This document shows, one piece after another, positions 5,589 to 10,551 of a stretch of 50,988 bases of DNA; the first letter of the stretch is position 1, and the number at the start of each line of letters is the position of its first letter. A model generated the notes under the pieces. It ran no database searches, was not told the DNA's origin, and saw only the letters and a program-made list of their open reading frames with translations. The position numbers and the translations under genes are program-made. Source of the DNA: a virus; the IMG/VR virus record IMGVR_UViG_3300037261_000025, positions 1 to 50,988 of that record; one strand, given 5' to 3'.

Positions 5589-5615
5589 GCCGACGAGCCA
5601 GTGTCGGTATTTTTT
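5589..5615 (+). terminator. Weak stem-loop with T run before the helicase gene
   Basis: CCGAC (5590-5594) pairs with GTCGG (5603-5607) around an 8-base loop and is followed by a run of six T (5610-5615). The stem is only 5-6 bp, so at most it is an attenuator. The ribosome site of the helicase gene (GGGGA, 5616-5620) follows directly. Confidence 0.3.
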
Positions 5616-5624
5616 GGGGATTTT

Positions 5625-8600
5625 ATGAGTGAAGTTGTCCTATTTGAAGATCAAAAAGAGGTGCTAGATAAAGTGCGTTCCGCGTTTATTGAGGGCCATA
5701 GGTCTGTGATGTTGTACGCGCCAACTGGCGCCGGAAAGTGCTTAGGACGCGATACACCTGTGATGATGGCAGACGGAACCATCAAGCCGGTGCAGGACAT
5801 CATAGCTGGTGAGTTTTTGATGGGCGACGATGGCGATCCGCGCTGTGTTATGAGCACAGCAACGGGAAGAGAAATGCTCTACCGCGTGACGCCACGAAAG
5901 GGTGATTCCTATGTGGTGAATGCGAGCCATCTTCTAAGTCTGCGTGTGACTCCAGGTAGCAACGGGATCCTTCTTGCTGATGGTATGCACATTAAGCGTG
6001 GTGAAGATGTTGTCTCTGTTCGTGCAGACGTATTCGCAAGAAGCAATAGAACCGCGAAGCATTGCCTAAAGGGCTGGAGATCGGATGCTATCCAAGCGTT
6101 CATGCGCGAGGATGATGGCGAGGACCGATTGATGCCGTCATATATTCTTGGTGCATGGCTTGGAGACGGAACCTTGGGCCACGCATCGATTACGAAGCCG
6201 CGCAGCAGGATGGTTGATGAGTGGGTTGCCTATGGTAGATCGATTGGTTACGGCGTCAGTATTGACGAGTGCGATGGTCGATGCCCCACATGGTTGTTGA
6301 CGAATGGATCTGACGGGTACGCATTCAACATCGCTCAATCGTCTCTTGGCGTCATCGGGGTCTTGCAGCGCAAGCACATACCTGACGCCTATAAGTATGG
6401 CCCGCTCTCTGATCGTCTGCAACTGCTGGCAGGTCTGATTGACAGCGATGGATCAGAATCGAATGGCGGATGCGACTGGATCAGTAAGAGCGAGGAGCTT
6501 GCCCGCGACTTCGCATTCGTCTGCCGTTCAGTGGGGCTGGCGTGCTACTTGACCTATGAGAAGAAGGGAATAAAGAGTACCGGATTTGTAGGTTGGTACT
6601 GGCGGGCGAGCGTGAGCGGAGACCTATCGATCATCCCGACGCGCGACAAGATATTCCCCGAACGTCGACAGATCAAGCGGCATCTTGTCCACGGGATCAC
6701 CGTCGAGCCAATGGGAGAGGGTGACTACTTCGGTTTCGAGATCGATGGTAATCGGCTGTTCTTGCTGGGTGACTTCACGGTAACGCACAACACCGAGATG
6801 GCAATTTCCATGCTCAAAGCAACGTCGGACAAGTACAAGCGCGGGGCAATGATGCTTGACCGCATTGTTCTTTGCAATCAGACAAGCGCGCGCCTGCAGA
6901 AGTACAACATCGATCACGGCGTCATGCAGTCAGGCCATTGGCGAAATCGACCCTATGAGCGCATCCAAGTGTGTAGTGCGCAGACTCTCGAAAAGCGCGG
7001 ATCGTTCCCAGGGCTTGACCTTTTGATTGTTGATGAGTGTTTTCCTGGTGAAACGTTAATTGACACAATTGACGGCGCGCGTCGAATAGACACACTAAAC
7101 GATGGCGGTCTCATATACAATGCAATAGGTACTGGAACAGTTCGTTCAATTTTCTCGAAAACGGTGTTTCAGACATTGCTTGTAAGGATGTCAAATGGCG
7201 ACTCATTTGAATGCACAGAGGATCATCCCGTGTTCACTGACTTGGGATGGCAACCCGCTGGCGCCATGGCGCGGGGTACGAAGCTATTTCGCGGTGAAAA
7301 CTTGCGAAGTCTGTGGAGAGGAGATTCGACCGCTTGTCATAAACTCGAAAACGGAGGGAGTGATACCGGAAGCGGAAACATTATTCAATGCGCGGAAATG
7401 TTGCGGGAAATCTTGCGCCAAGAAATTGAGCAACCCGATGCACAAGCCGGAATTGCGTATGAAAATGAAGGATACGCTTCTCCGAATTGGGCACAAGCCA
7501 TTGGTGCGCGGAGGCAATGGGAAGGGCATGACGGAGACCGAGACGCTTATGTTGAGCAAGTTGCCGGTGGGGTGGGGTCCAGGCCACATTTTCAAGACGT
7601 TGAGAAGTGCGGCTCAGGGGTATCCGCATCACTACAAATTGGATCTTGCGTTTCCTATCCAAAGGCTTTGTCTGGAGTTGGATGGCGGGAGTCATCGCTC
7701 GATTGCTCGGCAAGCGCAGGACGCGAAGAAGGATGCGCTGCTAAGAGAGTTTGGGTGGAAAGTGTGCAGACTCAAGAACACCCAAGCGGTAGAACTGTTT
7801 TCAACTTGCGAGTCAGTGGACACCCTTCGTATTTTGCAAATGGCTACCTAGTCCATAACTGCCACACCCAGCGACAGCAGACAACGGAGTTCATTCGGTC
7901 GAACGAAAGCATCAAAGTCATCGGCCTATCGGCTTCACCATTCGCCGACGGACTTGGAAAGACCTATACCAAGGTCGTATCGGCAACAACCACTGCAAAG
8001 TTGGTAGACCAAAAGCGACTCGTTCCTCTGCGCGTGTTTATCGCCAAGGAAATCGACATGGCTGGAGCGAAGAAAGTCGCTGGAGAATGGTCACAGGGCG
8101 AAGCGGCAGAGCGGGGCATGAAAATAACCGGCGATGTGGTGGCTGAGTGGGTGAAGAAAACGACCGAGATTTTCGGTGGACCTCGAAAGACGATTGTGTT
8201 TTGCTCGAATGTCGCCCACGGCGCTGATCTGGCGAATAAGTTCTCGGATGCCGGGTACAACTTCGTCGCGATCAGCTACAAGGATTCTGACGAGTTCAAG
8301 GTTGATGCCGTCGCTGATTTCTCAAAGCCTGATACGGCCATTCATGGTCTGATTGCATGCGACATCTTGACCAAGGGATTTGATGTGCCTGATGTCATGA
8401 TCGGAGTCAGCGCGCGTCCGTTCACCAAGTCATTCATGAGCCACGTCCAGCAAATGGGCCGGGTGATGCGCAGCTACCCAGAAAAGGAGTTCGCAATATG
8501 GCTTGACCACTCGGGGAACTATCTCCGGTTTCAAGAGGACTGGGACGAGCTATACCACGAAGGAGTCCATGAACTTTCTGACGGAAAAGAAAAGGCAAAG

Positions 8601-8975
8601 AAAGAAAAATCCGACAAAGAAAAGGAAGCGGCAAAGTGCCCTCGATGTCATGCGCTATGGGTCGGAAAGTCCGACAACTGCGTTGCATGCGGGTATGCCA
8701 GGCCGTTCACCAGCTTGATCGAAGCCGTACCGGGTGAGATGGAAGAACTCAAGGGTGCTCCGACGAAGGATGTGAAGCAGTCATGGTATTCGCAGCTTCG
8801 CACGCTTGCGGAGAACAGAGGATATTCGAATGGCTGGGTCGCGCACAAGTACCGTACCCGTTTTGGGGTGTGGCCCAAGGGCTTGCAGGAGGTTGCGCTG
8901 CCAGTTAGCATCGAGGTCGCACGATGGGAAACAAGCCAAAGAATTGCATGGGCTAAAGGTAAGAAATCAGTATGA
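5625..8975 (+). CDS. DEAD/DECH-box DNA helicase precursor interrupted by two inteins
   Basis: 1116 residues as translated. Removing two inteins (351 and 274 residues) leaves a helicase of about 491 residues. Mature motifs: Walker A PTGAGKT, formed only after intein 1 is removed; DECH box VDECH, formed only after intein 2 is removed; LSASPFADG (motif III region); QQMGRVMRS (motif VI); and a C-terminal zinc ribbon CPRC...CVAC. Start: ATG 5625 has GGGGA 4 bases upstream and is preferred over the in-frame GTG at 5601. Both inteins sit in catalytic motifs, so the protein should be inactive until spliced. A GIY-YIG nuclease and primase follow with overlapping starts, so it is a replication helicase by context. 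Confidence 0.93.
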   Translation: MSEVVLFEDQKEVLDKVRSAFIEGHRSVMLYAPTGAGKCLGRDTPVMMADGTIKPVQDIIAGEFLMGDDGDPRCVMSTATGREMLYRVTPRKGDSYVVNASHLLSLRVTPGSNGILLADGMHIKRGEDVVSVRADVFARSNRTAKHCLKGWRSDAIQAFMREDDGEDRLMPSYILGAWLGDGTLGHASITKPRSRMVDEWVAYGRSIGYGVSIDECDGRCPTWLLTNGSDGYAFNIAQSSLGVIGVLQRKHIPDAYKYGPLSDRLQLLAGLIDSDGSESNGGCDWISKSEELARDFAFVCRSVGLACYLTYEKKGIKSTGFVGWYWRASVSGDLSIIPTRDKIFPERRQIKRHLVHGITVEPMGEGDYFGFEIDGNRLFLLGDFTVTHNTEMAISMLKATSDKYKRGAMMLDRIVLCNQTSARLQKYNIDHGVMQSGHWRNRPYERIQVCSAQTLEKRGSFPGLDLLIVDECFPGETLIDTIDGARRIDTLNDGGLIYNAIGTGTVRSIFSKTVFQTLLVRMSNGDSFECTEDHPVFTDLGWQPAGAMARGTKLFRGENLRSLWRGDSTACHKLENGGSDTGSGNIIQCAEMLREILRQEIEQPDAQAGIAYENEGYASPNWAQAIGARRQWEGHDGDRDAYVEQVAGGVGSRPHFQDVEKCGSGVSASLQIGSCVSYPKALSGVGWRESSLDCSASAGREEGCAAKRVWVESVQTQEHPSGRTVFNLRVSGHPSYFANGYLVHNCHTQRQQTTEFIRSNESIKVIGLSASPFADGLGKTYTKVVSATTTAKLVDQKRLVPLRVFIAKEIDMAGAKKVAGEWSQGEAAERGMKITGDVVAEWVKKTTEIFGGPRKTIVFCSNVAHGADLANKFSDAGYNFVAISYKDSDEFKVDAVADFSKPDTAIHGLIACDILTKGFDVPDVMIGVSARPFTKSFMSHVQQMGRVMRSYPEKEFAIWLDHSGNYLRFQEDWDELYHEGVHELSDGKEKAKKEKSDKEKEAAKCPRCHALWVGKSDNCVACGYARPFTSLIEAVPGEMEELKGAPTKDVKQSWYSQLRTLAENRGYSNGWVAHKYRTRFGVWPKGLQEVALPVSIEVARWETSQRIAWAKGKKSV
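5739..6791 (+). mobile_element. Intein 1 with LAGLIDADG homing endonuclease (in Walker A)
   Basis: 351 codons in frame. It starts at Cys (TGC 5739) after APTGAGK and ends VTHN (AAC 6789-6791), followed by Thr as the +1 residue. Block A: CLGRDTPVMMADGTIKPV. Block B-like: VNASHLLSL. The endonuclease core has two dodecapeptides, YILGAWLGDGTLG and LLAGLIDSDGSES. The C-terminal splicing blocks are YFGFEIDGNRLFLLGDFTVTHN. All residues for canonical splicing are present: Cys1, terminal Asn preceded by His, and Thr+1. Insertion in the P-loop of an ATPase is a typical intein site. Confidence 0.95.
7038..7859 (+). mobile_element. Intein 2 (in the DECH box), with an out-of-frame nuclease gene inside
   Basis: 274 codons in the helicase frame. 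It starts at Cys (TGT 7038) after LLIVDE and ends GYLVHN (AAC 7857-7859); the next residue is Cys, the start of CHTQ. N-terminal splicing blocks: CFPGETLIDTIDGARRI and FECTEDHPVF. C-terminal block: TVFNLRVSGHPSYFANGYLVHN split over 7797-7859. In its own frame the ~160 residues between the blocks have no endonuclease motif and read like a by-product frame. The other plus frame (7195-7851) encodes a nuclease. So the middle of this intein is a linker whose sequence is set by another gene. Confidence 0.93.
7195..7851 (+). CDS. Vsr/DUF559-like homing endonuclease nested out of frame inside intein 2
   Basis: 218 residues, frame +1 relative to the helicase, wholly inside the intein. Start ATG 7195 has its own ribosome site AAGGA with a 6-base spacer, supporting independent translation. 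Residues ~36-82 carry paired Cys (KTCEVCGEEI and KCCGKSC), a likely zinc-binding DNA-recognition element. Residues ~150-205 hold a PD-(D/E)XK core: YKLDLAFP, then CLELDGGSHRS, then DALLREFGWKVCRLKN. This pattern matches Vsr-like/DUF559 nucleases found as free-standing homing enzymes. Its stop (TAG 7849-7851) lies 8 bases before the end of the intein. The first ~30 residues overlap the N-terminal splicing block and may be less constrained. Confidence 0.85.
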   Translation: MATHLNAQRIIPCSLTWDGNPLAPWRGVRSYFAVKTCEVCGEEIRPLVINSKTEGVIPEAETLFNARKCCGKSCAKKLSNPMHKPELRMKMKDTLLRIGHKPLVRGGNGKGMTETETLMLSKLPVGWGPGHIFKTLRSAAQGYPHHYKLDLAFPIQRLCLELDGGSHRSIARQAQDAKKDALLREFGWKVCRLKNTQAVELFSTCESVDTLRILQMAT

Positions 8976-9685
8976 GTAACACCAATTGTCGATGCGGTAT
9001 TTATTCAATTGCTACGCCGAATGGCAGTACGTACATTGGCAGCAGCAACAAAATCGAGCGCCGATGGCACGAGCACCGGAGCCTGTTGCGCCACGGCAAG
9101 CACCATTCCACGAGGTTGCAGGCAGCTTGGGATAAGCATGGTGCGGCGCTTGTGTTTTCTGTATTGATGGAATGCCCGCTGGCTGAATTGAACGAGCGGG
9201 AGCATGAGTTTATTGATCGGCTTGGCGCTAAATTGAATACGTCCACATTCGTAGAAAACGTTTGGCTTAACGAAAGTACACGGGCGAAGTTCTCGGCTAT
9301 CCACCAATCCCCCGAATGGAAGGAATCCCGTAGACGCATTGCGACCGAATCTTCAACGCGCTGGGTAGCAGTCGAGTGCAGCAATGGGACTCAGTACAAG
9401 AACATGACGGATGCGGCACGCGCTTTTGGGGTTCGCGCTGCTGGCATCGCTCATCTTGTCAGGTCGCAGCGAGTTGGAAGGCTTGGCGTCCGCTTCAAAC
9501 TACAAACAGAGTGTTGGCGCGATGTGCCGACATGGCAGGATCAGCGCGTCATTACTATGCGCCAAAACGGCAACGACAAACGCACCGATCAATCTCGCGC
9601 GCGCATGAGCGCAGCGAAGAAGGGGCGCGCCGTCAGCCCCCAATGCCTTGCGGCCGCGACTGCTGCGAATCGGAAGACTGCATGA
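8972..9685 (+). CDS. GIY-YIG homing endonuclease
   Basis: 237 residues. N-terminal GIY-YIG domain (~1-90): GIYSI (9-13), TYIGSS (20-25), RRWHEHRSLL with the catalytic Arg, and EFIDRLGAKLN with the metal-binding Glu. The C-terminal region (~120-190) has a NUMOD-type DNA-binding stretch (SNGTQYKNMTDAARAFGV). The extreme C-terminus (DKRTDQSRARMSAAKKGR) resembles the basic repeat of segE-type mobile nucleases. ATG overlaps the helicase stop, and its stop overlaps the primase start, so it is coupled into the operon rather than sitting in an intron. Likely target: a gene next door in related phages (inference). Confidence 0.88.
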   Translation: MSNTNCRCGIYSIATPNGSTYIGSSNKIERRWHEHRSLLRHGKHHSTRLQAAWDKHGAALVFSVLMECPLAELNEREHEFIDRLGAKLNTSTFVENVWLNESTRAKFSAIHQSPEWKESRRRIATESSTRWVAVECSNGTQYKNMTDAARAFGVRAAGIAHLVRSQRVGRLGVRFKLQTECWRDVPTWQDQRVITMRQNGNDKRTDQSRARMSAAKKGRAVSPQCLAAATAANRKTA

Positions 9686-10551
9686 GCGACTTCATTGCAT
9701 TCGCCCGGTCCCACGGTGTTCTGATTGACAGGATTCAGGACGATGGAAAGTGGCACAGGGTGCCAACGGAAACTCACCCGAAGAAGAAAAACGGCGCATA
9801 TCGTCACTGCGGCACGCATGCGCACGTACAGGATCATTCGACCATGGTCGATCCAGTTCTATGGACGCCAACGGCTGAACAGGTTGCCAACATAGACCAC
9901 GAAGGAATCGCACGCCGGGCAATCGAAGCGGCGCATGAAATCCGCGTCGGCCAGGAAGGCGCTTCGAAACGTGCATCTTGGATCATGCACCAATGCGTAA
10001 TCGATGTTCATCCATACCTCGAAAGCAAGGGGTTTCCAGAAGAGCGAGGATACGTCTGGAACGATGAAAAATCAGCGAATAAAAAGCTCGTGATACCCAT
10101 GCGGATCAATGGGCAAATAGTTGGAGCACAGACCATCAGCGACAGAGAAGGATTTGAAAAAAGGTTTTTGTTCGGGCAGAGAACGAGCGAGGCAACATAC
10201 ATCATCGATAACAAGGGTCCGAAGTGGTTTTGCGAGGGCTATGCAACTGGCTTGTCCGTTCGCGCCGCCTTGCAGGCCATCAAGACCCGGTACACGTTGA
10301 TCGTCTGTTTCTCGGCTGGAAATTTGCTCAAGGTAGCACGCAACCACGGCGAAGGATTCATCGTCGCAGATCATGACAACGCGAGCCCGTTAGCGCCTCT
10401 TGAAGGCGGAATTGGCGTGAAGGTGGCCACTGATAGCGGGTTGCCGTTTTGGAGTGCTGGCGAGGCCGGTATTGACTTCAACGACTACCATCGAAAGCAT
10501 GGGCTATTCAAGGCGTCACAGGCGCTCAATGGGTTGATGATGCGACGATAG
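9682..10551 (+). CDS. TOPRIM-domain DNA primase
   Basis: 289 residues from ATG 9682, overlapping the upstream TGA; the frame extends further back only as a shadow of the GIY-YIG gene. Residues ~1-60 form a short N-terminal region with H and C residues (YRHCGTHAHVQ) resembling the zinc-type DUF927/P4 primase start. Residues ~105-165: AYLESKGF-like segment and LVIPMRINGQIVGAQTIS. Residues ~185-280 are the TOPRIM fold: FCEGYATGLSV (catalytic Glu), then GEGFIVADHDN (the DxD). Family: phage P4 alpha-like Toprim primases. It would prime replication along with the helicase upstream. Confidence 0.88.
   Translation: MSDFIAFARSHGVLIDRIQDDGKWHRVPTETHPKKKNGAYRHCGTHAHVQDHSTMVDPVLWTPTAEQVANIDHEGIARRAIEAAHEIRVGQEGASKRASWIMHQCVIDVHPYLESKGFPEERGYVWNDEKSANKKLVIPMRINGQIVGAQTISDREGFEKRFLFGQRTSEATYIIDNKGPKWFCEGYATGLSVRAALQAIKTRYTLIVCFSAGNLLKVARNHGEGFIVADHDNASPLAPLEGGIGVKVATDSGLPFWSAGEAGIDFNDYHRKHGLFKASQALNGLMMRR

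Follow-up and report, generated by a model that had tools for sequence, protein, structure and literature searches.

An endonuclease gene nested out of frame within an intein of a phage helicase, and the family of loci that shares this layout

Introduction

Inteins are taught as single proteins in which the endonuclease is a domain of the intein itself. Fractured genes, reportedly described by Dassa et al. in NAR in 2009, are said to contain split inteins with a free-standing gene for a Vsr-like endonuclease between the two halves. Out-of-frame endonucleases are also on record: in the ShiLan domain, an HNH endonuclease lies out of frame in a phage methylase, in which the authors could not identify an intein (PMC11855218). 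Both this domain and the Pacc40 insertion carry an HNH or HNH-like endonuclease in another frame of a continuous phage host ORF; neither has a detectable self-splicing domain, and no ribosome site could be detected for the HNH ORF (PMC11855218). As its reference 7, the same paper cites a preprint on actinobacteriophage inteins with a "non-canonical architecture" (PMC11855218).

Here, a virus record of 50,988 bases, in its entirety called the window below, was analysed for an intein that contains, in the +1 frame, a complete gene for a DUF559/Vsr-like nuclease. The layout looks like a widespread and little-noticed build of mobile genetic element.

The helicase gene and its second intein

The features of the locus are listed in Table 1. 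The most upstream start of the helicase ORF is the GTG at 5601, and the ATG at 5625 is also possible. Intein 2 has the junctions VDE/CFPGET...YLVHN/CHTQ (a slash marks a splice junction). In another phage (L009), the helicase is 63% identical and lacks intein 2, its uninterrupted motif reading DE/AH. The gap in the alignment of the two genes coincides exactly with the intein as it had been delimited from the sequence alone, splitting the DECH box, which confirms its boundaries.

Table 1 Features of the helicase locus in the window
Feature	Position	Strand	Evidence
SF2 (DEAH/DECH-type) helicase gene, interrupted by two inteins	5601..8975	+	ORF; ResIII and Helicase_C; PHROG DNA helicase
Intein 2, 274 codons, DE/C...HN/CH, in the Walker B/DECH box	7038..7859	+	Pfam, TIGRFAM, gap in L009
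N-terminal splicing (Hint) part: Cys1, block B T60..H63	7038..7301	+	AF2 pLDDT; conserved C1, T60, H63
AAGGA, candidate ribosome site for ATG 7195, 6-base spacer	7184..7188	+	Sequence; SD survey
Nested +1-frame ORF, 218 codons, DUF559/Vsr-fold endonuclease	7195..7851	+	ORF, Pfam, AF2, VIA-align
Alternative start codon GTG, close upstream of the zinc motif	7294..7296	+	Start inspection
Insert in the intein frame: mostly low-confidence linker, unconserved except for being open	7302..7745	+	AF2, control-frame comparison, 0 stops
Zinc-type Cys pairs C37, C40, C70, C74 of the nuclease	7303..7416	+	Nearly invariant, 57 sequences
Nuclease catalytic core, PD-(D/E)XK/Vsr fold	7525..7788	+	Conservation, AF2, VIA-align
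C-terminal splicing part ending LVHN, then +1 Cys	7746..7859	+	AF2 pLDDT >90; V272/H273/N274
Nuclease stop TAG, from the LV codons of intein LVHN	7849..7851	+	Sequence; stop-position survey

Matches of intein 2 to the Pfam profiles Intein_splicing and Vint were below the cut-off, and those to TIGR01445 and TIGR01443 just below it; the Intein_splicing profile was matched by all 50 aligned inteins of the family (E 0.01). In the alignment of these 50 inteins C1, T60 and H63 are conserved, V272 and N274 are invariant, and H273 is nearly so. The window thus meets the criteria for an intein: a nucleophile Cys1 with a Cys at position +1 of the C-extein, a block B TxxH, a terminal HN, and an in-frame insertion at an exact site that is absent from homologues (L009, phi674 and VchM-138). 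AF2 models were made from input alignments from which rows of the phage record collection had been left out. That of the intein has a pLDDT above 90 over approximately residues 1-85 and 240-274 and mostly below 60 in between; at the level of a prediction, a linker that is mostly disordered thus interrupts a confidently modelled Hint fold. The best structural match was the gp41-1 intein (TMt 0.87), which we take to be one of the split inteins of the fractured-gene type; the Mtu RecA intein was matched as well. The splicing residues and the Hint fold of intein 2 are intact, from which protein splicing is inferred in the absence of expression data.

The same helicase carries a further intein in its Walker A motif (intein 1, 5739-6791, GAGK/C...HN/T). 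It is of the usual kind, with a Hom_end_hint match and a weak in-frame LAGLIDADG match, so that one helicase gene holds both intein architectures. Between the helicase and a Toprim-domain ORF (9376-10551) lies a GIY-YIG gene (8972-9685). It looks like a free-standing endonuclease insertion, since a primase-like gene directly follows the helicase in L009.

The nested nuclease

The sequence-only reading had described a complete, 218-residue Vsr/DUF559-like nuclease with zinc-type Cys pairs, situated wholly inside intein 2 at an offset of +1 from the helicase frame, preceded by AAGGA at a 6-base spacer from its ATG, and stopping 8 bases before the end of the intein. Coordinates and frame were confirmed, as were the ribosome site and the stop. 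In the profile search proposed as a check, the nuclease matched Pfam DUF559 (PF04480) at E = 8.4e-8, with 32.5 bits against a curated cut-off of 20.6; the lack of any match to a nuclease profile, which would have counted against the reading, was thus not encountered. All 57 aligned family members matched this profile. PHROGs gave only weak matches for the nuclease. Residues D150, D163 and H167 are invariant in the 57 sequences and E161 nearly so.

The AF2 model of the nuclease (pLDDT 85) had no Foldseek match below E = 0.001. For this reason, the fold was assigned from the profile, the active-site pattern and a second-look alignment with VIA-align, which joined residues ~107-218 to the DUF559 protein 3hrl (Z 9.2), the homing endonuclease I-Bth0305I (Z 8.8) and Vsr (8.6). 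The first 20 residues, which are read from the block B region of the intein, are modelled with low confidence. With a profile match and a PD-(D/E)XK/Vsr fold with an acidic active site, the criteria for a DUF559/Vsr-like endonuclease are met.

A family of nested loci and its exceptions

When the window nuclease alone was scanned directly against viral contigs, no matches were obtained, and relatives beyond this single-query scan required family alignment and profile scans. A tblastn search with the nuclease against 50,697 phage records gave 41 matches. The matches listed fell under single large genes labelled helicase, P-loop NTPase, coil containing or hypothetical protein. Seven loci were opened, from Vibrio, Pseudomonas and Corynebacterium phages; in each the host gene is a helicase and the nuclease is +1 to the spanning ORF. 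In these phage records (L002-L008), the nuclease had no separate gene annotation, the whole ORF being labelled helicase, P-loop NTPase, coil containing protein or hypothetical protein. By profile scans, relatives were found in their hundreds in IMG/VR, and 27 came from contigs of bacterial genomes. After removal of duplicates, 208 non-redundant family members remained, L103-L116, distant DUF559 proteins of bacterial genomes, being placed outside the family. The nuclease is nested in the +1 frame of a spanning ORF in 204 of the 208, and a nuclease nested in the +2 frame or in frame was sought among them and not found. The nested layout, noticed first in this one phage, is therefore the rule for a large family.

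In the 192 loci of which both ends could be located, DE precedes the intein in 185 and HN/C marks its end in 179. Most hosts are SF2 helicases, a few are SNF2-like in appearance, and clamp-loader (DnaX-like) ATPases make up at least 28 of 164 representatives, as judged by eye from the downstream sequence. What the hosts have in common is the Walker B DExx motif. The clamp-loader genes with the nested element are those of L099, L101, L102 and L273-L333, among which are contigs of bacterial genome assemblies. A tree of the nucleases was weakly supported, with free-standing copies among nested ones and an outgroup that was not monophyletic, and for that reason no origin is claimed.

The four members that are not nested are L090, L231, L234 and L187. 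Free-standing nuclease genes lie directly upstream of an intein-less helicase in L231 (3489-4175; DECH) and L090 (3468-4082; DESHH) and overlap the open frame of the helicase, while the nuclease of L234 stands free elsewhere. In L187 (3083-4072), decay has left a split intein whose halves flank the nuclease: the intein frame contains 27 stops between them, and the nuclease ORF is intact and still +1 to both. L187 meets the criterion for a fractured gene; the window, with its continuous host ORF, does not.

Proposed mechanism and translation of the nuclease

We consider it very probable that intein 2 is mobile and carries an overlapping gene for a homing endonuclease that is translated independently, a reading in which splicing, internal initiation, site-specific cutting and homing are inferred. 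The helicase precursor would be translated straight through the intein and the insert, after which the Hint halves would fold around the long unconserved linker and self-splice, restoring the DECH box. On the same mRNA, a second ribosome would initiate at the nested start within the intein and give a separate nuclease. This enzyme would cut the conserved Walker B/DEAH-box coding site where no intein is present, and during repair, intein and nuclease would together be copied into the cut gene. The +1 phase may have been fixed by a single fusion event; it fits such an event because an indel that changed the phase would break one of the two layers.

Recognizable signals for internal initiation are common. 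A ribosome site together with a start was found in the nuclease frame of 128 of the 192 loci and in the control frame of 32, and strong combinations (SD of at least 5 with ATG) numbered 38 and 0, respectively. The exact start is less certain than the ORF, as a conserved [D/N]G motif of the intein partly determines the ATG at 7195. In the clade of the window, the loci inspected have an ATG over this motif. Little weight as evidence was given to the conserved ATG at intein position 157, since the [D/N]G motif alone yields an ATG. A start downstream of block B is found in many of the other loci, such as the one with host sequence DEVLYD and GAGG upstream. The nuclease stops at a few fixed places; in 59 of the 192 loci this is a TAG over the LV or VV of LVHN or VVHN.

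Programmed +1 ribosomal frameshifting in the intein, by which the extein and the N half of the intein would be fused to the nuclease, could also account for a phase that is always +1 and for the approximately one third of loci in which no ribosome site is recognizable at the nested start. It is unlikely in view of the start codon found upstream of the zinc Cys residues in 187 of the 192 loci (by the rule used here it is absent in 5), the fourfold excess of ribosome site plus start over the control frame, and the occurrence of the same nuclease as a free-standing protein with its own start.

Presence, absence and mobility

Several closely related phages differ in the presence of the element. 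The Corynebacterium phage phi673 carries it and phi674 does not, with flanks that are 99.1% identical; the +1 residue is Cys with the element and Val without it, and 7 of the 17 mismatches fall within 77 nt downstream of the site. Such clustering is what co-conversion would be expected to leave. A second pair is that of CP-T1 and VchM-138 (96.4%), in which VchM-138 is empty and the +1 residue changes from Ala to Cys; here, unlike in phi673 and phi674, the mismatches are spread. Among Vibrio phages with approximately 88% identical helicases, the empty (1.285.O, DEAHH), mini-intein and nested (1.088.O) states are all present. The mini-intein, in Vibrio phage PS65A.1 (L353), consists of 150 residues at the same DE/C site; the whole insert with the nuclease is missing, and it is the only nuclease-free intein that was seen at this site. 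The same PS65A.1 gene also has a LAGLIDADG-type intein in its Walker A motif. Some nucleases that are 74-76% identical reside in helicases that are only 36-38% identical. The identities of nuclease and host gene are still correlated (Spearman 0.50), which points to vertical inheritance as well as transfer.

These data also bear on the idea that the nuclease is real and co-selected without being a homing enzyme, and serves the phage against competitors, in repair or in packaging while merely being lodged in the intein. The DUF559/Vsr-fold proteins do include non-homing enzymes such as Vsr and TnsA. However, the intein occupies one conserved target motif across helicases and clamp-loader genes, and the presence/absence pairs, with the mismatches of phi673 and phi674 clustered at the site, are likewise what homing elements display, so that a purely domestic role is improbable.

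Two overlapping coding layers

Synonymous resampling of the nuclease codons of the window would be expected to give approximately 8.5 stops in the intein frame, and none is seen. For 84 loci, 652 stops were expected with the nuclease's own codon usage and 792 with that of the host, again with none observed. Because of this deficit, the nested ORF is not a chance ORF. Over all 192 loci, none of the 31,507 intein-frame codons that overlap the nuclease is a stop, against 2,540 of 31,327 in the third frame.

A comparison of substitutions in both frames across relatives had been put forward as a check on the sequence-only reading. At intein codon positions 1, 2 and 3, respectively, 535, 397 and 1012 substitutions were counted in the N splicing block, 2533, 1302 and 1049 in the insert, and 130, 87 and 278 in the C block. 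The fastest position is thus the wobble position of the intein in the N block, that of the nuclease in the insert, and that of the intein again in the C block. This switch between frames indicates that both the intein and the nuclease are under selection. No relative was seen that has stops in the nuclease frame while the intein insert is kept, an outcome that would have contradicted the reading.

Whether the insert, as read in the intein frame, yields a functional domain of its own, such that both frames would encode working proteins throughout, can be judged from the nuclease core of paired relatives. In favour of such a domain are the constant openness of the frame and a few low-complexity motifs that it contains repeatedly. 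The mean identity of the nuclease protein is 79%, while the intein-frame reading is 60.5% identical, the same as the unread third frame (0.605 vs 0.605), AF2 gives mostly low confidence there, and conserved nuclease codons, read out of their own frame, can account for the recurring motifs. A functional linker is therefore very hard to maintain; going by these identities, the intein frame within the insert is constrained little beyond the absence of stops. Some inteins carry decayed endonuclease domains, and the proposal that an ordinary intein with an in-frame endonuclease was put out of frame by indels, as a relic or an assembly artefact, is refuted by the family comparison, in which the same +1 offset holds at both ends of 204 non-redundant loci, including cultured and separately sequenced phages, and the nuclease has wobble substitutions and 0 stops.

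For the mobile intein with an overlapping endonuclease gene, both coding layers and the selection on them, the fixed +1 phase, the nuclease fold and the exact empty sites stand as demonstrated, as do the splicing residues and Hint fold, the presence/absence pairs, and the clustering of mismatches beside the site in phi673 and phi674.

Implications

In more than 200 loci, one stretch of DNA encodes a splicing element in one frame and, as a second protein in another, the nuclease by which this element would be spread. As a natural example of long dual coding, the family is a clear one, and the two kinds of constraint in it can be told apart; the cultured pairs of phages with and without the element make homing testable. 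A possible origin of split inteins and fractured genes is suggested by L187: when an open intein frame is no longer required, it would collect stops while the nuclease survives. Annotators may take warning from the lack of separate annotation of the nuclease in the seven phage records opened. The broadest interpretation is of a widespread, undescribed class of inteins that have homing separated from the intein protein. A single ancient insertion would have fixed the +1 overlap, and this would have been retained as the element moved to the Walker B motifs of SF2 helicases, SNF2-like proteins and clamp-loader ATPases of phages and bacteria; such inteins can also decay to split inteins, as a route to fractured genes. 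We regard the evidence for this interpretation as a whole as evenly balanced.

Comparison with known systems

In the literature searched, no intein with an out-of-frame endonuclease was found; priority remains unsettled, as preprint 10.1101/2025.01.02.630785 may hold something similar. Canonical large inteins, such as PI-SceI and intein 1 of the window, share with intein 2 a Hint domain in a conserved motif and an endonuclease between the N and C splicing parts. Their LAGLIDADG or HNH domain is in frame, whereas intein 2 has a DUF559/Vsr fold in the +1 frame; this nuclease is therefore not part of the intein protein and requires separate translation. The canonical criterion, an endonuclease in the intein frame, is met by none of the 208 members.

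I-Bth0305I (PDB 3r3p), a Vsr-like homing endonuclease annotated as a mobile intron protein, shares the fold of the catalytic core (Z 8.8 over 91 residues) at 13% identity to the window nuclease. Its N-terminal part is different; the window nuclease has the zinc Cys pairs and an RGGNG motif.

Like the window, fractured genes place a Vsr-fold nuclease that has its own start between the halves of a phage intein, and L187 is the same in this respect. In fractured genes the host is broken, whereas that of the window is one uninterrupted ORF with a contiguous intein and overlapping layers. The closest published case is the ShiLan domain. Like the Pacc40 insertion, it shares with intein 2 a homing endonuclease out of frame inside a continuous phage host ORF. 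The criterion for that type, an out-of-frame HNH endonuclease in a host ORF without splicing domains, is not met by the window: ShiLan and Pacc40 have an HNH or HNH-like enzyme and no detectable splicing domain, whereas intein 2 is a complete intein with a DUF559/Vsr nuclease.
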